Source of the DNA: Fimbriimonas ginsengisoli Gsoil 348
Lineage (GTDB): Bacteria > Armatimonadota > Fimbriimonadia > Fimbriimonadales > Fimbriimonadaceae
NCBI RefSeq assembly: GCF_000724625.1
Contig: NZ_CP007139.1
Location: 3,286,001 to 3,350,000 of the forward strand
Length of the DNA: 64,000 bases
Direction: 5' to 3'
In this document: positions 21,301-32,480 of the stretch, in pieces
How positions within the stretch are numbered: the first letter of the stretch is position 1
How the letters are laid out: every line of letters starts with the position of its first letter
Translations under genes and position numbers: made by a program
Notes under the pieces: model-generated
Told to the model about the DNA's origin: nothing
Database searches by the model: none
Seen by the model: only the letters and a program-made list of their open reading frames with translations

Positions 21301-22847
21301 TTTCGCCGCCGATCAACCACAACCTCTATTCCATCGAGGACGTGAAGCTGATGATCGAAAGCTGGCGGCACCTCAATCCCTCCGTCAACTGCGCTTTGAA
21401 ATACGTTGCGACCCATGGCGTGGAGATGGTAGCGGCGGGCGGCGTAAATGCGGGCGCGAACCGGCTCCACCTGAGCGACGGCTGCGGCGGAACCGGCGCC
21501 GCCAAGCGGGTCGATCAGAAGCATGCAGGCGTGCCGCTGGCCGCCGTGCTGCCCACGGTTCACGACCTTCTGGTAGAAGAAGACGTCCGCCACCTGGTCG
21601 AGCTCTCCGTCGACGGCGGAGTGCAGACGGGTACTCAGGCGCTGAAGCTTTTCCTTCTTGGCGCGGACCGGGTCGGTTTTGGAACCTCCCTGCTGATCTC
21701 GATCGGTTGCTCGATGCTCCGAAAGTGCCACTTAAGCGGTCCGGACCCGGCCGACCCGACCGGGAAGCGGCGTCTTGGCTGCACTCCCGGAATCGCCACT
21801 CAGGACCCTCAGTGGATTGCCCGCTTTGCGGGGGACTGGCGGCACATCGTCCGGATGCTCCGATTTGTGGCGCAAGAGATCCGCGAGTCGCTTGCCGCGA
21901 TGGGCGTTCGATCCGTGGCCGAGGTGATTGGCCGGCGGGATCTGCTGGAGCGCAAGCCGGGGCTCACCGGCAAAGCCGCCATGCTCGACCTAACGTCGAT
22001 CCTCTCCGCGCCGCATGGCTTCAGTCAAGCACGCGATCTCGCCGCACAGAGCAAGGCGCATATGCCGGCGCTCCGTGGGGAAGAGCTCGAGGCCGCCGAC
22101 CGGGCGATGTCGGGCGAGACGGTAACCATTATCGAGCGGCTTACGAACGAGAGCCGCTGCGTAGGCGTCGGGGCGGCGGGCAAGGTCGCTCGTCGCTTCG
22201 GCGATTTGGGGCTGCCAGAAGGCGGGCTCCATTTCGTACACACCGGGGCCGCCGGCCACTTCTATGCGGCCTATTCGGTGGAGGGTTTGGAGTTCCGCCT
22301 GCAGGGCGTGGTCGCCGACTCGTGCTTCACCGCCGCCTATGGCGGTCTGCTTGCCGTGACTCCGGCGGACGGGCAGTCGGGCAGGTCGCTGGTCGGCAAT
22401 GCATTCGGCTACGGAGCCCGTGGCGGACGAGCCTATATCGCCGGCCGCGGCGGCAACCGGTTTGGAATCTGCCTCCGCAAGAGCCACGAGGGAACCGGCC
22501 CGCGCGTGGTCGTGGAAGGGGTCGAAGCGAACGCGTTCCAGTACATGACCGGCGGGGTGGCGCTGGTCCTCGGACCCACCGGTCCCAACCTTGGCTCGGG
22601 CATGACCGGCGGCCGCGTTTTCTTGCTCGACGCCGACATGGCCTCGCTGAACTCGGACTACGTGGGCGCGGTTTCTCTCGACGAGGGAGAGTCGCGGCTG
22701 GTCCGCGAAATGCTCCGCGAGCATGTGGAACACACCGAAAGCCAGATCGGCCGCCAACTTCTAGAGTCGTTCGACGCCTCTCGTTTCGTCCGAGTGTCGA
22801 CGGTAGTCAAACCGGAACTGGTGCCGGAGTTGGTCAGCGTCGTCTAG
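18384..22847 (+). CDS. gltB: Glutamate synthase large subunit (ferredoxin- or NAD(P)H-dependent)
   Basis: A 1487-residue enzyme expected to make two glutamates from glutamine and 2-oxoglutarate. The N-terminal Ntn amidotransferase domain should be exposed by cleavage before Cys17 (EADACGIGLLA); FDHRGAPGHGAGLQLDIPW and AHNGEIATIQGN follow as expected. The FMN synthase domain includes KVSVKVAHQRGCEPGYELVSPP, LHLSDGCGGTGAAKR and DGGVQTG, and the C-terminal GXGXG helix domain includes NAFGYGARGGRAYIAGRGGNRFGICLR. The 3Fe-4S loop has Cys1109, Cys1115 and Cys1133: the last spacing is 17 residues instead of the canonical 4, a 13-residue insertion. No gltD is adjacent, so the electron donor may be ferredoxin or a distant small subunit. 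Confidence 0.93.
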   Translation: MYPVNRNGRTVLEADACGIGLLATRKGVAERRLVETALELTTRFDHRGAPGHGAGLQLDIPWPMLLDRFGLHAKAIAQRDVALGMFFLPFEAPLRRRCVETVERLAAVAGADVLQWADVPVNSAALDPTSSALRTLPIVRQALFRRPEGMSEDGWFACRYLLRLALDRVLGQIAGDEFSVVSLSNRTVVYKGLAELSRIAELYPDLRDPHFASRYVVFHSRYCTNTTTAWRRAQPFWAVAHNGEIATIQGNVAWMNAIGRDLIRNLVDRNPSLSRIAAEVSSIVCSGGSDTANLDDMMIALMAGGMSFPQAVLALLPPATSTLAEDDPLHPFARAASVYLGACDGPAALVGCDGDHAVAHLDRNGLRPLWVQTSRDYVMAVSELTGTLDLGDVETQRVMGPGDTVVVELTSGRVLFDEAVRAEVARHPFPSPQTRIVEGASAPATSEVGGLTQLQRAFGMTREDVDVLVKPLAETGKPAIGSMGDDTSPAAMLDALPRRMEDHFALRFAQETSPPIDPIRDAWVFDSTVALGDRSGLWSVATGPVYAFPHRVLSNGELGWLKSQKAVREVSLLFPIVSGDETANAAALEEAIEMVVEQALAMADEPGVLVLTDRYPTAEQAAIPPIRVVSLLHRRLVELGMRNRVGLIADVGVWDIHHCALLITLGADAVTPWLGLATAGEGTDKYLKGVRSGLVEAMSMMGVTPASAYCGAGLVEAVGLSEGLMRAEFPGVPVHLGGIGRDVLDREWLAFHSAAFFGDSELPDAGEFRHSKEGRRHANNAEVVRSLQLSSGYAKKIHGSAPGSREAFDDYKDLVNGREPVTVLDLLQVRKGEAIPIDEVESEAEILWRFMAPGMSEGALSEPAHRTVAKAFNVLHRYCRIKLGGPRPGIGPVANSGEGGFDKARIGRRDGNRSVQYAGGRFTITPMTAARAAEAEVKFAQGAKPGKGGQLPGKKVSVKVAHQRGCEPGYELVSPPINHNLYSIEDVKLMIESWRHLNPSVNCALKYVATHGVEMVAAGGVNAGANRLHLSDGCGGTGAAKRVDQKHAGVPLAAVLPTVHDLLVEEDVRHLVELSVDGGVQTGTQALKLFLLGADRVGFGTSLLISIGCSMLRKCHLSGPDPADPTGKRRLGCTPGIATQDPQWIARFAGDWRHIVRMLRFVAQEIRESLAAMGVRSVAEVIGRRDLLERKPGLTGKAAMLDLTSILSAPHGFSQARDLAAQSKAHMPALRGEELEAADRAMSGETVTIIERLTNESRCVGVGAAGKVARRFGDLGLPEGGLHFVHTGAAGHFYAAYSVEGLEFRLQGVVADSCFTAAYGGLLAVTPADGQSGRSLVGNAFGYGARGGRAYIAGRGGNRFGICLRKSHEGTGPRVVVEGVEANAFQYMTGGVALVLGPTGPNLGSGMTGGRVFLLDADMASLNSDYVGAVSLDEGESRLVREMLREHVEHTESQIGRQLLESFDASRFVRVSTVVKPELVPELVSVV

Positions 22848-22853
22848 CTTCCG

Positions 22854-22909
22854 GATTTCTCCACCCCCATCCCCCTCCTCATCGCACGGACTTCGACGAG
22901 GAGGGGGCT
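22854..22909. repeat. 56-bp terminator-like repeat, copy 1
   Basis: This unit contains CCCCCTCCTC (22871-22880) and its reverse complement at 22898-22907, separated by a 17-base loop. It lies between the convergent gltB and GGDEF genes. A near-identical unit, differing at a handful of positions mostly in the loop, occurs at 43480-43535, also between convergent genes. It is probably a dispersed bidirectional terminator. Confidence 0.8.
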
Positions 22910-23814
22910 TATGGAATGGTCGCGGCTTCGAAGATTCGGATCTGGTTCTTACCCGCTCGCTTCGCCGCGTAAAGCGCTACGTCGGCGGCGTCTAGCGCCT
23001 CCGAGGCCGAATGCCGCCCGCTGGCTAACATTAGGCCGGCGCTGAAGCGAATCTCCCTGGCCTGCAGGCTCGACATCGCGCCCTGTAGGCGCGTGGCCAC
23101 CTCGGTGGGCGTCGCCTTCCAAAACAGGGCGAGAAACTCGTCGCCGCCCCACCGCGCCACCCAATCGTTCGGCCCCATCTCGGCCCTTAACGTGCGGGCG
23201 AGACCTATCAGGCTCTCGTCCCCTCCCGCGTGTCCAAAGGCCGTATTGGTTTCCTTCAAATCGTCGAGGTCGATGACGGCGAGGGTGAATTCCGCGCCCG
23301 CGCCCCTAGCTGCGAGGAGATCGCTCTCGAGGCGGTCGGTTGCGAAACGGCGGTTGTGGACCCCGGTAAGGGCATCGGTGGTGGACACTTTCGCCAGCTC
23401 CGCCACCGATTCATCCAGGTGGGTGACTACCTTGTGGGTGAGAGCCATCAGCCGCCCCATCTCGTCCGGAAACTCGGTCGGGAGCTCCGTGATCCGGCCG
23501 TGCCGGTCGTACTCCTGGAGGAAGCGCAGCATTTGCCGCATCGGCGCCAGAAGCGCCCAGATCATCCAGACGGTGAGCACGATGGAAGCGACCCGCTCGC
23601 CTAAGATCAGTCCGCGGACTACGCGCACGTCGAGGTCGGGGTCCCAAACTTTGAAGAAGGCAGAGCTCAATAGAGCATGGGTTCCCACGATGGCCACCAA
23701 GAGGAGCTTGGTGGTAAAGCTGCTCTTTCGCCAGACTTTGGATAGAAACCGGTAAAGGCCCAATTCTGTAGATGTTGGCGCAGGAATGGAGGCGATAGTA
23801 TTTGGATCGGTCAT
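22909..23814 (-). CDS. Membrane-bound GGDEF diguanylate cyclase
   Basis: A 301-residue protein predicted to make cyclic di-GMP. Two hydrophobic helices (about 36-56 and 72-92) form a short membrane sensor with almost no loop between them. A HAMP-like linker (MRQMLRFLQEYDRHGRITELPTEFPDEMGRL) follows, and then the GGDEF domain with DALTGVHNRRF, VIDLDDLKETN (metal Asp) and an intact RWGGDEFLALF active site. The position five residues before GGDEF lacks the RxxD inhibitory site, so product inhibition is not expected. Its start is divergent from tRNA-Tyr. Confidence 0.92.
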   Translation of the reverse strand: MTDPNTIASIPAPTSTELGLYRFLSKVWRKSSFTTKLLLVAIVGTHALLSSAFFKVWDPDLDVRVVRGLILGERVASIVLTVWMIWALLAPMRQMLRFLQEYDRHGRITELPTEFPDEMGRLMALTHKVVTHLDESVAELAKVSTTDALTGVHNRRFATDRLESDLLAARGAGAEFTLAVIDLDDLKETNTAFGHAGGDESLIGLARTLRAEMGPNDWVARWGGDEFLALFWKATPTEVATRLQGAMSSLQAREIRFSAGLMLASGRHSASEALDAADVALYAAKRAGKNQIRIFEAATIP

Positions 23815-24107: not shown

Positions 24108-25682
24108 CTACTGGAACCTCCATTGCTGGTTGGTTTTGCCGTTGGACTGATACTGATCGACGAGGGTGCCGTTGTTCCTCTTGGCGCCAACGACGTCTAG
24201 CAATAGTCCGCTATTGACGTTCTTCAGGTTGTAAACGCCGGCGCTGACCTGAACGATCTGCCATTGCTGGTTGGTGCCACCGCCGTACGGCCACTGATCG
24301 ACTTTCGCTCCATTCGTGGTCGAGGCTCCGTAGACTTCGAGGGCAAGGCCGCTGGCGACGTTGATGAGCTTAACGACGTTATTCCCGAGATTCGTCAGGA
24401 CCCATTTCTGGTTGTTCCCGCCGTTTACGGACCAGATGTCCATCTGGGTGCCGTTCGCCGTCGAGGAGCCCGGATCGTCCAGCGCAGAGCCGCTTTGGAC
24501 TCCGACGATCGTATAGGTTCCGTTGTTGATCAGGTTCCCCTGTGCCGGCGGGGGCACGGCAGACGTTCCCAGGAACGAATTGAGCATCGTTTGGTCCGTG
24601 ACCGCACCCGTGGTCCAGTTGAATACCTGGCCCGCGATATTCCAAACCGTACAGTAGAGGCCATGGCTGTTCGCCGAATCGTGGACGTACTTGTTCCAAT
24701 ACGTGCACGAGTCGTAGTTCAGCGTAATGTTGGCCCCGGTCAGGTCAGGCTCGGACGGCTTCGGGGAAGCCTCGTATTCTCCAATAAGAACAGGAACGCC
24801 CGCGTTCTTGAATTGGGTCTGCATCTTGGTGAACTCAGACTCCACGTAGGCTTCCTCTCCCCAGGTGGCGTTCCGGGAAGGCAACGTGGTGGAATGGTAG
24901 CCGTTCCCCCAGAAGTAGAACATGTTGCCCCAGGACGCATCCGACGTGAGCTGAGTGAACTGGAACGGGTCGTAGAGATGCACCTCGAGCATGATGCGAT
25001 GGGCAGAATCTGTGGGCATCGAAGCGGGAGTCAGCCAACTGCACGTGTTGTCGATGTTGGTCGTCGGCCCCTGCACGATCAGCCAGCGCGTCGCGTTGTT
25101 GCCGCCGGTGCCGCGCACCGCGTTTACGAACGTCTGGTAATACTGGAACAGAACGCTTGTCTGGGCCGCGCTGGTGGCATTCGGTTCGTTGGCGGCGGCG
25201 AAGAGCACGTGGGAGTCGTATCCGTTGAAGGCGGTCGCGACCTGCTGCCACATACGCTGCATCTTGGTGTTGAGCGTCGAGTTGAAGCTCGCGTAGCCTC
25301 CGCTGTCGAGCCATCCATTGTCCCAGTGATCGTTGATGATCACATAGAGGCCCCGGGCAGTGCACCAGTTGACGGTCTGTTGCACCTGGGACATAAAACT
25401 GGAGCTAATATTTCCGTTGGCGTCCGAAGCGTTTATCCAAGCGCATGGGATCCGAATCGTATTGAATCCGGCGTTCGCCACTGAGTTGATGAGCGCCTGG
25501 CTAGGTAGCGGACCCCAGGAACCGGGGCTGGGAATCGCTTCGAAAGTGTTGCCGAGGTTCCACCCGGTGCTTGGCGTCGGGAGCTGTCCGAACGCCCCCA
25601 TCGGCAGGGCAAGCGAGCAAGCGATAGCAAGAATAGTCTTTAGCCGGGCGTTCTTTAGGCCCTTCGCTGATCTAATCGACAT
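24108..25682 (-). CDS. Secreted GH5 family glycoside hydrolase with ricin-type lectin domain
   Basis: A 524-residue extracellular glycanase, probably an endo-beta-1,4-glucanase or mannanase. GAGGAG 9 bases upstream fixes the ATG at 25682, and the protein opens with a signal peptide (about 1-32). The GH5 domain begins TGWNLGNTFEA, has IIINDHW-like strand 4, the acid/base Glu166 in FAAANEPN and the nucleophile Glu302 in VPVLIGEYEAS. After a PPPAQGN linker, residues 387-524 form a ricin B/CBM13-like trefoil with three NQ.W-type repeats. It is divergent from an AraC regulator, with only 56 bp between the two starts, which suggests carbohydrate-responsive control. Confidence 0.9.
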   Translation of the reverse strand: MSIRSAKGLKNARLKTILAIACSLALPMGAFGQLPTPSTGWNLGNTFEAIPSPGSWGPLPSQALINSVANAGFNTIRIPCAWINASDANGNISSSFMSQVQQTVNWCTARGLYVIINDHWDNGWLDSGGYASFNSTLNTKMQRMWQQVATAFNGYDSHVLFAAANEPNATSAAQTSVLFQYYQTFVNAVRGTGGNNATRWLIVQGPTTNIDNTCSWLTPASMPTDSAHRIMLEVHLYDPFQFTQLTSDASWGNMFYFWGNGYHSTTLPSRNATWGEEAYVESEFTKMQTQFKNAGVPVLIGEYEASPKPSEPDLTGANITLNYDSCTYWNKYVHDSANSHGLYCTVWNIAGQVFNWTTGAVTDQTMLNSFLGTSAVPPPAQGNLINNGTYTIVGVQSGSALDDPGSSTANGTQMDIWSVNGGNNQKWVLTNLGNNVVKLINVASGLALEVYGASTTNGAKVDQWPYGGGTNQQWQIVQVSAGVYNLKNVNSGLLLDVVGAKRNNGTLVDQYQSNGKTNQQWRFQ

Positions 25683-25738
25683 TGATTGTTCTCCTCTTTC
25701 CGAGAACTTCAGTGTTCGGTAACTTTGAGGTCCGCGCA
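25683..25738. promoter_or_regulatory. Shared divergent regulatory region of GH5 and AraC genes
   Basis: Only 56 bases separate the GH5 start at 25682 from the AraC start at 25739, and both ribosome binding sites lie in this stretch. Any AraC binding site must lie here or inside the genes. I see no clear direct repeat pair. Confidence 0.4.
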
Positions 25739-26530
25739 ATGCAAAATATCGATGGGATAATGCACAGTCTTCCAATGCGTGGGGTATTTGCCGATACATT
25801 CGTCGGCGGCGGGAACTACAGATCTCATCATCACGCGTTCTGGGAGATCATCTATGTGCGGACCGGATCGGTGAAGATTTGCCAGGGATCGGCGGTTTTC
25901 GACATGGGACCGGGCATGATTCTGCTTCACCCGCCTTTCGTGGAGCATGCGGACAGCTCAACCTCCGAGTACTCCATTTTTTATGTGCAGATCGACGCTC
26001 CTGCCGACGCGCCCTGGCCGGGAATAGCGAATGACGACTCTTTTCAGTCGATGGGGCGGATCTGTGAGGCGACCTGCCGCGAGTGGAAGGGCAGTCACCC
26101 CCTAAGAGAAGAGATGATCGCGAACTTGACCCAGCAAACGGATCTCTTGCTGAGGCGCTTTAAGACGGCGGAGCATCGTTCCAAGGGAGAGATTTTGGTC
26201 GCCGCGGCGGAAAGGATCTTGGAGGAGCGGTACAACCTGCCGATCACCGCCGCAGAACTCGCGTCGGAACTTGGAGTTTCGAGGTCGCTGTTGTACGCGG
26301 AATTCACCGCGGTGACGGGGCAAACCCCCAAGGCGTACGTGCTTCGCCGGCGGTTGGAACATGCCACGGCGATGTTGCAACACACGAACTTCACGCTGGA
26401 AAGAATCGCGGCGGCGACAGGGTTCTATTCTTCGAGCCACCTGGCGAGGCACGTAAAGGCGTCGACGCACCAAAGCCCCGGCACCATCCGCAAACTCGCC
26501 TTAGCTCGGAATTCCCGGCCAACCGAATAG
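25739..26530 (+). CDS. AraC-family transcriptional regulator
   Basis: A 263-residue regulator. The ATG at 25739 is preceded by TGAGG; the earlier in-frame start at 25682 overlaps the divergent GH5 start and adds no conserved sequence. The N-terminal cupin sugar-sensing domain has the HHHAFWEIIYVRTGSVKI strand and GMILLHPPFVEHA. The C-terminal pair of helix-turn-helices begins ITAAELASELGVSRSLLYAEFTAVTGQTPKAYVLRRRLEHA and ends with FTLERIAAATGFYSSSHLARHVKASTHQSP. Its position divergent from the GH5 gene makes it the likely local activator; the effector is unknown. Confidence 0.9.
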   Translation: MQNIDGIMHSLPMRGVFADTFVGGGNYRSHHHAFWEIIYVRTGSVKICQGSAVFDMGPGMILLHPPFVEHADSSTSEYSIFYVQIDAPADAPWPGIANDDSFQSMGRICEATCREWKGSHPLREEMIANLTQQTDLLLRRFKTAEHRSKGEILVAAAERILEERYNLPITAAELASELGVSRSLLYAEFTAVTGQTPKAYVLRRRLEHATAMLQHTNFTLERIAAATGFYSSSHLARHVKASTHQSPGTIRKLALARNSRPTE

Positions 26531-26821: not shown

Positions 26822-28231
26822 TTGGACCTATTTGCCACGATTACCGTCCGTCAGTTCTCTGACTTACTACGACAAACGCCGATCGGTACGTTGCTTCGTA
26901 GGGACCAATGCCCGTTGCTCGTAAAGTTTCGCGAGAATAATTCGGTCGACTTCACCACCAGACTGACCAAAGACGGTAACTCCAAGTGCTTTCGGATCTC
27001 AGCGGCGAGACAGAGCAACGGCAACCAGGTTAAGTTGGTGGCGCGTGATATCCCCGAAATTCAGTTTCCCACCGTCGCAAGCTTCAATTGTATGGGCTTG
27101 TTGGCGGCCTGGAAGAATGACTTGGAACTTCCAACGATCTGGATTTCTCCCTCGGCAGAGGATTTATTGGGTGCTGGCAAGTTGGATTCCGGTCTGGTCG
27201 TCATTTTCGGCGAAACCGGGTCGGGAAAATCGGTCTTGGCAGATCGCATCTGCCAGCACGTCTTTGATAACCTTCGAGGCGGAAAGGGACACGTGCTGCG
27301 TTTCGGCGATCCGGTGGAAGGGGCGTTTAACTTCCACACTCGTTACGGAGTGCAGTTGGGACAGTTCTCCGACGTAGCGGTCGAGACGCAACGGAACCTC
27401 GGATCAGACACTCCTTCACTCGACCAATTCGGAATGGACGCGCTACGGCAGAAACCAGCGCTTGTCAGTGTCTCGGAATTGCGTAGTTCGGCGGATATGC
27501 TCGCAGCGCTAGAGTTAGCTTCCACCGGACACCTCGTAGTTGCAACGGCACACTCGGGTTCGCTCAAGGAGGGGTTCGCCAGGCTGATGAACGCCTACGG
27601 CTGTTTCGCGAACCCCGATCTCAAGGCGCCGCTTATTTCCTCGGTGCGGTGCCTGATCCATGTGGAGAGTAAGAAGGTTAACCTTCGTGAACTCGAAGGG
27701 CCCTCGCGGAAGTATAAGATCGTGCTGCCCACTGTCTGGTCAAAGACTCCAAGCGCTTTGGTGCACTTCATTGCCGACGGACCGCAGATGATCACACCAT
27801 CTAGCGGTGCGAGCTCGGATGCGGCCGACCCGCTCTACTACTACTCGGAGCCAAAGACCGTATTCAATCTGATTGCGCGAGCAGTCATCGATCTCCACAC
27901 GGATCCGTCCAAGTTGTCCGCGACGGCCACTTGCAAGTCGGACTGGCAAGGAGTCAACGCCCAGAAAGCCTCGGTTTCAGGGGAATGGGAATCGTACGTA
28001 AGACTACTCCTCGATCACATCACTGGGAAAAAAGCACCCGCTCACACCGACGACGAAATCGAGCGTCAAACGAGCCGGTTGCTCGACCACGTTTGGTCGA
28101 CCGTGATGTGTCAGGAGAGGGAGGGCCATCTGAATTGGAAAAAGGCCATGCCGCCCGACTTTGAAACGATCGAGGAGGATGTGAACACGATAGTTGAGGT
28201 GCTGAAGATCGCGATTAGGGAGATTTACTGA
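26822..28231 (+). CDS. PilT/GspE-like secretion-type ATPase of an unrecognised system
   Basis: A 469-residue P-loop ATPase with the four motifs of type II/IV secretion ATPases in correct order and spacing: Walker A GETGSGKS (130-137), an Asp-box-like LRFGDPVEG (159-167), a degenerate Walker B ALRQKPALVSVSELR (207-221, Glu219), and a His box LASTGHLVVATAHSGS (232-247). PilT itself is about 345 residues; here residues 1-100 could be a divergent N-domain, and the last 180 residues match nothing I know. It starts at a TTG preceded by AGAGG and is coupled (1-bp gap) to the KaiC-like gene. No pilus or secretion gene is nearby, so the motor has probably been recruited to another job. Confidence 0.7.
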   Translation: MDLFATITVRQFSDLLRQTPIGTLLRRDQCPLLVKFRENNSVDFTTRLTKDGNSKCFRISAARQSNGNQVKLVARDIPEIQFPTVASFNCMGLLAAWKNDLELPTIWISPSAEDLLGAGKLDSGLVVIFGETGSGKSVLADRICQHVFDNLRGGKGHVLRFGDPVEGAFNFHTRYGVQLGQFSDVAVETQRNLGSDTPSLDQFGMDALRQKPALVSVSELRSSADMLAALELASTGHLVVATAHSGSLKEGFARLMNAYGCFANPDLKAPLISSVRCLIHVESKKVNLRELEGPSRKYKIVLPTVWSKTPSALVHFIADGPQMITPSSGASSDAADPLYYYSEPKTVFNLIARAVIDLHTDPSKLSATATCKSDWQGVNAQKASVSGEWESYVRLLLDHITGKKAPAHTDDEIERQTSRLLDHVWSTVMCQEREGHLNWKKAMPPDFETIEEDVNTIVEVLKIAIREIY

Positions 28232-28232
28232 A

Positions 28233-31200
28233 ATGGGCGTCCTCAAAACTTACATTTACGAGCTTGATCGTCTCTTTCACCCGGTAGACGAATATGGAAA
28301 AGTTTGTTATGAAAAGCATGGCATTCAGTCGCCAATCGTGCTCACAGCGGATCTAGAGCTAAAGCCCAAAGAGTCAGTCCCCGAAAGAACCCTTACGATT
28401 TCCCTCGCCGGGGCGGCGGGTACTGGCAAGTCGATTTTGGCTTTGCACTTCGCTGCTGCTTTTCTCGTCGAGAACCCTGGCGCATTTGTCATGTACATCT
28501 CAACTGACTTGAGCCATGGCGTCGCAAAACGACAAATGGAGTCGTTCGGACTTGGCAAGCCCGGGGAACTTTGGGAATTCTTTGAGAGACCCAAAAACAG
28601 TATCAATCTGCGAACGGTGGTTGACCTACCTAAGGTCGAATGGGGCGCCCTCGGGGACGGAACCTTTCTTCGTAGCGTGATTAGCCCGGAGTCGATCATA
28701 CAATCCAGTTTATCAACGACAACGGTAAACAAGACTGCAGAGCCCGATATAAGTAGCGTCCACTTTGTGGACTTTCAGGAAGGAGCGAGTGGTGACGATT
28801 GGCTGTACCTTGAGGAGTTCCTATCCAAGCTCCTGCCATTAATGGAAAAGATCTTCCCACAGCGCAAGGTGCTCCTCGTGATCGATGCCATCGAAGGTTT
28901 AGATACACCCGGTTCAGGAGAGTTGCCGATTTCGAGGCACGGGCGGCGCCAGCGGCTCGCAAGGCTCATGGAAACCACCACCCGCAACGCCAACATTGTA
29001 TTCACCTTGGAGGCTACGGAACCGAACTTAGATGTCGACGAGGAATTTGTCTCGGACGTTGCGATCCATCTTAACCGAGACCAAACTGAGCACGGCTCGC
29101 GAACCACTTTAGAAGTCAAGAAGGCGCGGGGCATGTATGTCTACTCGGGAGTACATGAGTTAGTTATTAGAGGAAACCGAGGGACGACAACCGACGAGCA
29201 GGTCAACGAAGATGATCCCGACCTTCCTTGCAATAAGGTTCTCCTCCTGCCATCTCTATCGGTTTTTGAACAACGATTAGAGCTGAAATCAGCCAAGGAC
29301 TCTATCGCTTGGCCCGACAATAGCGTCGTTCTGGAACCGTGCAATCTAAAATTTGGAATTCCCGCTCTTGACGAAATGCTTAGCGAGGAAGGCGGCTTGG
29401 GTGCTGGAGGTATACACCTAATTCTTGGAGAAGAGTACACACACACGTCAAAATTGATAACTGCGTTCTTATCGCAAGGTTGTTATCGAGTTTATGAACT
29501 ATTAATGGTGGGGGCAAAGGCAAAATTACGCCCAGATATTGACCTGCTAGGTCGCGAATTCCGTAAAGCGGTGATAGCGTATCTCCCAGATGTCCGTCGC
29601 CAACTACTTTCACAGTTAATTCCAAATTCAGCATTGCCTCAGGACCTATTTGGAACAGGATTACTCTTTAGCTCTGGGAGGTCTGTTACGGCGCGGAGCT
29701 ATTTGAATGGTCTTATTGAAAATTGGAATGCAATCTTTCAGGTTCAAGAAGGAGATCGCCTTGATGTAATTAATGCAAAAGTAGATGAGTCGGGAGTAAA
29801 GGAAGTCGCAGAGGTATCTGCCATGTTTTGTACGCAATTTCTTGCCCATAAAGGAGTACGTAGCTCGTTAAAGGCACCGCGTCCTTTCATTTACCGAAGA
29901 ATGCCGTCGAGACCTCTGTCTAAGGAGATGGTGTACTTTATCATCTTAGAGAATATGAAGGCCGCAATTGTTCAGCAGATTATCGGCGATTACCAGATCG
30001 GAATGGAAAGAACGTCAGGCCCGAGCGAGCGACCAATGAACCCGAGCTCCTTTAAAAAGTTGAACGCCGATATCGCAAGGTTCTGTCAAGAGTTTCCCAG
30101 GCTTCGCTATCCCCATGCGTGGCGGGTGCGGGTGGCCTTCGAGGAAATCTCAACGCTTTTGTCGTCCATTCCTCAAGAAGATCGTGAAACGCTTACGGCG
30201 GCTATCGTCGATTTGTGTCGAGTCACTGGCGTCACCGCCTTGTTTACCGATAAGCAACAAGGCGGGCCGCTGGGCGATTCCGCTCAATCGTCAACTGGCG
30301 TTGTTCACGCTCGAACAGAAAGCGCGATCTATACTTGGCACGTTCCATATGGGAGCGGCTCAAAGGTAGCAATTGCGAAAGTTCCGCCTGTTAGCCGCGA
30401 GAAGCAGGTGGTGGTCAGGGAGCTGCGGGGCTTCAGTGAATCTCAGCGTTTAGAAATCGACCGCTGCCTAGAGTTGTATTTGGATGTCATCCCGAGTCAC
30501 GGAGCCGAACTGGAGGATCTTCGGCGAGTACCGTTAACCGTGCTGCTCGGGACGGAAGGTGAGCTCTGGGGTGATCGCTCCTTCGAAACGCAGTGCGCAG
30601 ACCTTCTTCGGTCAAGCCTCGGTGATAGCTTTCATCTTCACCGACCAGATAGCTCAGATGTCCTTCATGTTGAGTCTATGCCCGGCCAAGTGCTTGAGAG
30701 TTTCGTAAATTACAGTCTTCATGCCGCCGAACCAAGAACGGTAGTGGCGATGATCGACGAATACTGGTCCAGGAACACAAGAGAGTGGTTCCGAAAGGGA
30801 CAATCGCGGGCAAAGGATCGATTCCTAGAGTTGGACGCCGCTATGGTCGGTCGCCTACGTCACCAAGAATTCGACAACGACGTCCAACCGATCCCGGATG
30901 AAAAGGATGAGCGACATCGGCGTCTCATTCCCTTCACATGGAATTTTGGATTATCTCTTTTGCGAATGCGCCCTTGGGAATTTGCTGCCGCCAAGGTCGA
31001 GGAGGGATTGGCAAATAGTAAAGCTCCGAAGGACGTCAAAGTAAAGGAAGTTCTTGAATTAGCTCGCGGGAAGTTTGACGTACTACCAAAAGTGTGCTCT
31101 CTCAGAGGAACTGGGGAGTCGCTCGCAGAAGTTCAAGCCAATAGTGAAGTCGCTTGGCATGAATTCTTTGCGGCATGCCAGTATGTTAAGCGATTCTATT

Positions 31201-32480
31201 CCGCTCACGATGATTTACAAGTCTTCGAAATCGACGCGCCTGACTCCCAATCTCTGGTTAGTTTTGTGCTTGAAGTTTGGATGTCCACCGTGGTGTGGTT
31301 TTATACGAAAATAGAGCACCTGCCCAGTCAGAAGCGAAAATTTGGCCCGAACGACACTCTGCAACTTCCGAACGCGTTTACTAAGTGCCTTGCGTGTCTT
31401 TCGAAATGGGATGTCACGGGCGCACACCGGAAGCTCTTGGCTTCAATCACAAACCTTGAAAAAGATGATTTTGCGGAGTCTAAGTCGCTCTTTGAAGTGA
31501 TCGATGAAGGTATTCGGTACTTGAACGTTCCACCTCCGAATTCAATGCAAGACGCAGGTAACGTTATTGCCGACTCGGAAGAGGCGGATAGCGCCGTCTA
31601 CATTTTTTGCTTGTATCTTACGCTATTGACGTTAAGCCAGGTGGTCGACTTTCATCAGTGGGTGCTTGATCCCAATACGTTCATCTTTAAGCCGCGAACG
31701 TCCACTGGGAAAGCGGTGGCTGGGCGTTATTGGTATGCAACCGCTTCGTTTATGCTTCGCCGGGAGAGCAGCCCCGGTGTACCGAATTTCGACCCTAATG
31801 ACCCAATGGTGCCGATGGCGCTCCCAGGTTATTTCTCGGCGAGGGGTGATTGGCACCTGGCGGTGCTCGCAAGCAGCCGTAGCATTTACTTGGGCGAGTT
31901 GGCAATCCATGAGCTTTCTCGGTCAAAGGCGGCCACGATTCGGCTTCAAACGGGGGTGGGGTTGCCGATGTACAATTTGGTCCGTTCAGCCGACCGGAGC
32001 CCAGAGCGCCAGGTTCGCACAGCCTTGCCTTCTCCATTTGGAGGGAAGATGGCGTCGTTCGATTACGGATATGTTAAAGCCATCGCTCCGTTGCGGTATA
32101 GGGCCGACCGAGTGTCCCGTAAAATTGTTTTTCCAGGACACGAAGGTTACTTTCCCATTTACCGAAGTGAGATTAAAGGCTATATTCAAGAGACAAGTCT
32201 CTTTTCGAAGGGACTCACTCGGATACTGGTGTCATTATCTGAAGCCCACCGGGAAGGGAAGTCGGTCGACTTTTATGACGTCTTCGAAGAACTGGCAGAT
32301 CGGCTGAAGGGGAGAGAAGATCTTCGCTCAATTGTCTATGGTGTGGAAGCAACAGAGGAGGAGACTAATGGGGAATCTGTCCGGGAAGGGCTCGGGAGAT
32401 CCGATACTTGGACAATCTTCAACGATTATTTCTCACACTTCCGAGCTTTTCTGGAACCTCATAAGTCACGTGAGTCGTGA
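28233..32480 (+). CDS. Very large KaiC/RadA-like double P-loop protein of unknown function
   Basis: A 1415-residue protein I cannot assign to a named family. Domain 1 (about 35-315) has a RecA/KaiC-type Walker A GAAGTGKS (60-67), a VMYISTDLS strand like KaiC's SxE strand, Walker B VLLVIDAI (212-219, Asp218) and a terminal KKARGMYVYSGVHELVI resembling KaiC's RGxxHxxGxHxxxI. Domain 2 starts with FGIPALDEML (374-383), as KaiC repeats do, but its P-loop is LGEEYTHTSK, without the GxGKT core, so it is probably non-catalytic. The remaining 900 or so residues show no motif I recognise. Base composition is clearly AT-richer than neighbours (for example 29430-29860), suggesting transfer. Confidence 0.65.
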   Translation: MGVLKTYIYELDRLFHPVDEYGKVCYEKHGIQSPIVLTADLELKPKESVPERTLTISLAGAAGTGKSILALHFAAAFLVENPGAFVMYISTDLSHGVAKRQMESFGLGKPGELWEFFERPKNSINLRTVVDLPKVEWGALGDGTFLRSVISPESIIQSSLSTTTVNKTAEPDISSVHFVDFQEGASGDDWLYLEEFLSKLLPLMEKIFPQRKVLLVIDAIEGLDTPGSGELPISRHGRRQRLARLMETTTRNANIVFTLEATEPNLDVDEEFVSDVAIHLNRDQTEHGSRTTLEVKKARGMYVYSGVHELVIRGNRGTTTDEQVNEDDPDLPCNKVLLLPSLSVFEQRLELKSAKDSIAWPDNSVVLEPCNLKFGIPALDEMLSEEGGLGAGGIHLILGEEYTHTSKLITAFLSQGCYRVYELLMVGAKAKLRPDIDLLGREFRKAVIAYLPDVRRQLLSQLIPNSALPQDLFGTGLLFSSGRSVTARSYLNGLIENWNAIFQVQEGDRLDVINAKVDESGVKEVAEVSAMFCTQFLAHKGVRSSLKAPRPFIYRRMPSRPLSKEMVYFIILENMKAAIVQQIIGDYQIGMERTSGPSERPMNPSSFKKLNADIARFCQEFPRLRYPHAWRVRVAFEEISTLLSSIPQEDRETLTAAIVDLCRVTGVTALFTDKQQGGPLGDSAQSSTGVVHARTESAIYTWHVPYGSGSKVAIAKVPPVSREKQVVVRELRGFSESQRLEIDRCLELYLDVIPSHGAELEDLRRVPLTVLLGTEGELWGDRSFETQCADLLRSSLGDSFHLHRPDSSDVLHVESMPGQVLESFVNYSLHAAEPRTVVAMIDEYWSRNTREWFRKGQSRAKDRFLELDAAMVGRLRHQEFDNDVQPIPDEKDERHRRLIPFTWNFGLSLLRMRPWEFAAAKVEEGLANSKAPKDVKVKEVLELARGKFDVLPKVCSLRGTGESLAEVQANSEVAWHEFFAACQYVKRFYSAHDDLQVFEIDAPDSQSLVSFVLEVWMSTVVWFYTKIEHLPSQKRKFGPNDTLQLPNAFTKCLACLSKWDVTGAHRKLLASITNLEKDDFAESKSLFEVIDEGIRYLNVPPPNSMQDAGNVIADSEEADSAVYIFCLYLTLLTLSQVVDFHQWVLDPNTFIFKPRTSTGKAVAGRYWYATASFMLRRESSPGVPNFDPNDPMVPMALPGYFSARGDWHLAVLASSRSIYLGELAIHELSRSKAATIRLQTGVGLPMYNLVRSADRSPERQVRTALPSPFGGKMASFDYGYVKAIAPLRYRADRVSRKIVFPGHEGYFPIYRSEIKGYIQETSLFSKGLTRILVSLSEAHREGKSVDFYDVFEELADRLKGREDLRSIVYGVEATEEETNGESVREGLGRSDTWTIFNDYFSHFRAFLEPHKSRES

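Follow-up and report, generated by a model that had tools for sequence, protein, structure and literature searches.

A rare, conserved gene pair encoding a divergent PilT-type ATPase and a tandem KaiC protein with a predicted sugar-binding-protein fold in Fimbriimonas ginsengisoli

Two adjacent genes, designated P1 and P2, were analysed in a 64,000-nucleotide stretch of the Fimbriimonas ginsengisoli Gsoil 348 genome (hereafter the window; coordinates without a locus name refer to it).

26822..28231, + strand: P1, a divergent PilT/VirB11-superfamily ATPase of 469 amino acids, with a TTG start
28233..32480, + strand: P2, a KaiC-KaiC-SBP-like protein of 1415 amino acids, without a clear transmembrane (TM) segment

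The two open reading frames are one base apart, and their lengths and spacing were confirmed as given in the first-pass annotation. The GC content of the pair was 51.7%, against at least 58.5% in every non-overlapping stretch of the same size in the window. No match to P2 was found in the 60 relatives searched, including 19 other genomes of the genus. Due to the atypical GC content and the absence of P2 from the relatives, horizontal acquisition of the pair was considered, with which both observations are consistent. The earlier description of the two genes as a self-contained ATPase module was supported, as was the atypical composition of the DNA. When an empty site was sought in the relatives, the two flanks of the pair matched different contigs or were not conserved, and therefore no clean insertion junction was obtained. 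Direct repeats flanking the pair were not detected at the settings used, and the promoter and terminator scans of the locus stayed at chance level.

In the window, the pair is flanked by genes for an AraC regulator, a GH5 cellulase and a transglutaminase-like protein. The GH5 cellulase (24108-25799) carries a ricin-type lectin domain, and the divergent AraC regulator (25682-26530) overlaps it at the 5' ends of the genes as called; both adjoin tRNA-Tyr and tRNA-Thr. A repeat of ~62 bases was located at ~22847-22911, in the interval that separates the glutamate synthase gene from the GGDEF gene, with at least 14 further copies dispersed across the same genome at 91-95% identity. A prophage was rejected as a candidate, as the 20-base core given in PMC4072686 was absent from the window.

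The following motifs were located in P1.

27209..27232, + strand: Walker A, GETGSGKS, residues 130-137
27440..27484, + strand: Walker B block, ALRQKPALVSVSELR, residues 207-221, with E219 invariant in the family
27527..27553, + strand: His box, GHLVVATAH, residues 236-244

Together with an Asp-box-like motif (HVLRFGDPVE, residues 157-166), all four PilT/GspE-type motifs are present in order, in agreement with the initial reading. The Walker B had been called degenerate; the block was indeed present around E219, but its form, LRQ.P..V.VGE.R, is conserved in the family. P1 matched the pilT_fam model at 7e-20, TraJ at 9e-18 and PF00437 at 1.5e-10, scores that place the family assignment far beyond chance; the DotB and GspE models matched as well. 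A profile of 13 P1 homologues matched PilT structures at 1.6e-29.

Further, P1 was compared with the pilus retraction ATPases. Against the PilT/PilU model TIGR01420 it scored 69.9 bits (71.5 bits in another search), below the curated cut-off of 319.1 bits, whereas four genes of the host scored above 415 bits. The P1 proteins were split from the PilT, PilB and GspE proteins of the host with a support of 0.998 (among the host references in this tree, loci L087 and L088 are the same open reading frame). AIRNLIRE has been described as a signature motif of PilT (PMC6153414, PMC6762196). The 13 P1 proteins have no counterpart beyond two AIR strings that look like chance matches at the very C-terminal end, while two PilTs of the host carry the motif in recognisable form (AIRNLIR and AIRTLIR in L086 and L089). 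Because of the low score against the cut-off and the separate clade, it was concluded that P1 is, judged by its sequence, a divergent PilT-type ATPase distinct from the housekeeping PilT. In 5 of the 13 P1 proteins the P-loop glycine was replaced by A or S (GxxxxAKS or GxxxxSKS); some P1 ATPases are therefore perhaps weak, and some of these proteins might act as a nucleotide-bound scaffold rather than a strong motor.

Three domains were delimited in P2.

28233..29267, + strand: KaiC-I, residues 1-345; profile against solved KaiC 7e-13
29286..30437, + strand: KaiC-II, residues ~352-735; profile against solved KaiC 5e-12
30531..32258, + strand: SBP-like domain, residues ~767-1342, approximate edges; predicted models of the window sequence and of the homologue L021

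P2 matched the Pfam KaiC model at 5.5e-15, and the two KaiC domains were related to each other (hhalign E 1.9e-6). KaiC-I is intact, with a Walker A (GAAGTGKS, residues 60-67) and a Walker B (LLVIDAIEG, residues 214-222), and the P-loop of KaiC-II is degenerate in all 11 members aligned. RadA was rejected as the nearest relative: the KaiC-I profile matched RadA at 4e-3 only, and the label 'RadA-like' was dropped since KaiC scored far better. Hence, of the KaiC/RadA-like description given to P2 at first, the KaiC tandem stood, but it covers only the first half of the protein, and the sugar-binding-protein (SBP) fold behind it had been missed.

The C-terminal part of P2 carries the conserved motifs VDEFW, IPYTWDFGFL, LPGxFSVRGDWFL and GLPxR, which before the structural comparison we took to be reminiscent of family-1 solute-binding proteins. 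Pfam showed no SBP family for P2 or for single C-termini even with E allowed up to 5-10, and a sequence search of the PDB with a C-terminal profile found nothing. The SBP assignment therefore rests on structure together with weak sequence signals. The model predicted from the window sequence (pLDDT 51, pTM 0.58) had two sugar-binding proteins as its best Foldseek matches, with E of only 0.3-0.5, and in VIA its top 50 matches were all SBPs (Z 8.8-11.1). The model of the homologue L021 reached the best mean pLDDT obtained, 66, with a pTM of 0.72; here 34 PDB matches were recorded by Foldseek at E<=1e-3, all 34 being SBPs (best 6e-5, probability 1.00), and VIA gave Z up to 13.8 for alignments of 280-304 residues, with deviations of 3.7-4.2 A. 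TM-scores in these comparisons were modest (about 0.3-0.45) and the Foldseek rmsd was high, which was read as probably reflecting differing lobe angles and inserts. By sequence, a phmmer search of the PDB with the distant homologue L064 returned a single match, SmoF, at E 0.31. In hhalign the family alone reached E 0.3, and 0.013 after distant members had been added, the latter against the SBPs of the host itself with 51 columns in register. It is well supported by the models that the C-terminus of P2 has the predicted two-lobed fold of ABC-transporter SBPs. The hydrophobicity peak of P2 (KD19 <=1.79) showed no clear TM-like segment; as the domain also lies behind two KaiC domains, it has no export signal, and we infer that it sits in the cytoplasm.

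The homologues of P2 were collected by a phylum search followed by a scan of genome contigs with an alignment of homologues; such an alignment was needed, as the same scan with the single P2 sequence found nothing. A P1 homologue was situated directly upstream of P2 on the same strand in 13 of 13 loci; the distance between the two genes, measured in 12 of these, ranged from -11 to +20 bases. Going by their record titles, six of these loci belong to Armatimonadota (the window and L016-L020), three to Acidobacteriota (L023, L025, L029), three to Planctomycetota (L024, L026, L032) and one to Burkholderiales (Rhizobacter sp. OV335, L031). In L016, L026 and L029 the P2 homologue runs off the end of the contig or locus. 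It lies in two frames in L032 (9965-13801, a Singulisphaera MAG), either by an assembly error or by a real break.

The distances of P1 and P2 were correlated in a mirror-tree comparison (r = 0.887), a value reached by none of 10,000 permutations, and the two proteins appear to be co-inherited. The pair is rare. In ~400 Acidobacteriota genomes one chance-like match was found besides the seed genome, ~400 Planctomycetota genomes gave one distant relative (G806), and 300 genomes of the Rhizobacter family gave no match. No relative of P2 was found among viral contigs, phages and plasmids, and a viral structure library gave nothing. The pair is present sporadically in at least four phyla.

A sister lineage, which the first-pass annotation had also missed, was found in two genomes (G193 and G194) that encode shorter KaiC-KaiC-SBP-like proteins without P1.

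L064:602-3406, - strand: sister KaiC-KaiC-SBP-like protein, preceded by a gene for a one-TM protein
L084:6822-9944, + strand: sister KaiC-KaiC-SBP-like protein, preceded by a gene for a one-TM protein

The sister proteins are 935 and 1041 amino acids long and share 33% identity. In each locus a one-TM gene lies just upstream, overlapping by ~10 bases in L064 and separated by 3 bases in L084. The two one-TM proteins have hydrophobicity peaks of 2.47 and 3.06. A third relative, G806 (L062), is truncated. Hence, the adjacency of the PilT-like gene and the large protein was complete in the close family, but the distant sister lineage occurs without P1. P2-like proteins therefore need no PilT partner in general, and having such a partner distinguishes one branch within a wider KaiC-SBP grouping.

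Known systems were considered for each part of the pair. P1 shares the four ordered motifs and the profile match with PilT/PilU, but falls below the model cut-off, lacks AIRNLIRE, forms a separate clade and lies outside a pilus operon. P2 has the CI-CII tandem of KaiC, each half with a profile match to solved KaiC; it differs from KaiC in the lost second P-loop, the large C-terminal SBP-like domain and the PilT-like partner. The predicted fold of the P2 C-terminus is that of CbpB, SmoF, a beta-glycoside-binding protein and MalE. However, compared with these ABC SBPs the domain shows an identity of about 10%, is placed behind KaiC and presumably in the cytoplasm, and is not accompanied by a permease gene close to the pair in the window.

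The closest precedent for the pairing itself is archaeal. In the archaellum, ArlH and ArlI (FlaH and FlaI) are, like P2 and P1, a KaiC-like ATPase and a motor ATPase of the secretion superfamily encoded in one operon (PMC8978795, PMC4858521). ArlH requires bound ATP for stimulating ArlI, and its phosphorylation state governs the contact between the two (PMC8978795); KaiC-family ATPases are also often encoded with archaeal type IV pilus (T4P) or VirB11/TadC operons (PMC4858521). ArlH, however, is one small KaiC domain against the two KaiC domains and SBP domain of P2, and the hosts here are bacteria. No archaellin, ArlJ platform, ArlCDE or pilin gene was recognised beside the pair among the window neighbours or among the families listed for the other loci, of which one listing covers the first 25 of 124. 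The first-pass annotation had held that neither a pilus or secretion context nor a KaiC-type one exists; this holds for the neighbourhood of the pair, but elsewhere in its genome the host has bona fide PilT and PilB genes, as well as GspE genes of its own. Its statement that no named system has this pair also held in that no described system fits, although ArlH/ArlI is a precedent for joining a KaiC-like protein to a secretion ATPase. No paper naming the P1-P2 pair was found among open-access papers, and the eLife 2020 survey of conflict systems mentions neither KaiC nor PilT. As far as the open-access literature shows, a Venus-flytrap sugar-binding fold joined to a cytoplasmic KaiC is undescribed. 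In our judgement the novelty lies in the system as a whole; its components are known ones, and for their pairing archaea offer a precedent.

The architecture suggests a molecular motor under the on-off control of an intracellular sensor. We tentatively proposed, by analogy and as the best of the explanations considered, that the two proteins make up a conserved ATPase module, in which the SBP domain would sense a cytosolic ligand and gate a KaiC ring controlling the P1 motor. The architecture of P2, a KaiC tandem with an SBP-like fold, is well supported, and the mechanism that we infer would proceed as follows. The SBP domain would close around a small molecule of the cytosol, which may be a sugar, a nucleotide-sugar or a glycerophosphodiester. 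The closure would be relayed by the degenerate KaiC-II to a ring of ATP-binding KaiC-I domains, and this ring would dock on the P1 hexamer and alter its ATPase cycle, as ArlH does with ArlI. A candidate substrate of the motor would be a machine of the host itself, either its type IV pilus or its type II secretion platform.

As a special case of this explanation, P1 might serve as an alternative motor of either of these two host machines, with P2 tuning it to a metabolite. PilT is the closest relative of P1, the host has its bona fide PilT and PilB genes and, according to PMC4072686, fimbriae, and KaiC-family regulators adjoin archaeal T4P (PMC4858521). Such a role is nevertheless unlikely, as P1 is without the retraction motif that is recognisable in two host PilTs, and no pilin or platform gene was recognised beside the pair in the loci scanned.

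The possible defence function suggested at first, in which the SBP domain would sense an infection-related molecule and the ATPases would execute an anti-phage or conflict response, was found slightly more doubtful still. It would suit the sporadic occurrence in four phyla, the lack of a match in the 19 congeneric genomes searched, the deviating GC content and the solitary cassette. Defence-like neighbours were observed in two loci, namely a TIR gene (L030) and an AAA/ABC fragment (L022). The pair was considered a solitary cassette because its neighbours are mostly unrelated housekeeping genes, those at the other loci encoding PNPase, TsaD, NadA, GHMP kinase, molybdopterin-related proteins and NADH/formate dehydrogenase subunits, and such neighbours speak against defence. 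A location in defence islands was not borne out: PADLOC run over the neighbours gave no such pattern (among 25 of the 51 families listed, with many generic kinase or ATPase models). P1 and P2 themselves had no full-length PADLOC match, only short ones confined to the P-loop at E 4.9e-4 or worse. Moreover, no effector domain was recognised, and phages, plasmids and viral contigs were without a match. Control of a motor was preferred over defence because of the ArlH/ArlI and T4P/VirB11/TadC precedents. The TIR-domain protein (L030:136-549, ThsB-like, 1.3e-7) is encoded upstream of the pair in a Chthonomonas-like MAG.

It is very improbable that P2 acts as a timer or kinase hub of the KaiC type and that P1 serves only for its assembly: the tandem KaiC layout would fit, but KaiC autophosphorylates in its second half (CII), and it is this half that has lost a usable P-loop in 11 of 11 aligned members.

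Taken with the sister lineage, the proposed sensor-gated motor may, as a somewhat bolder and less probable reading, represent a new class of intracellular signalling machine, in which a cytoplasmic solute-binding fold is the sensor of a KaiC ring gating a PilT-type motor, and in which a membrane-anchored protein takes the place of the motor in the sister lineage. If this is true, KaiC-SBP would be a general sensor-switch with interchangeable outputs, possibly immune ones. The pair is available in a cultured and named host, F. ginsengisoli Gsoil 348, and also in Rhizobacter sp. OV335. If the SBP domain still binds a ligand, small-molecule sensing would be linked to ring ATPases of two families, and the ArlH/ArlI switch would have in this pair a counterpart from bacteria that is open to experiment.
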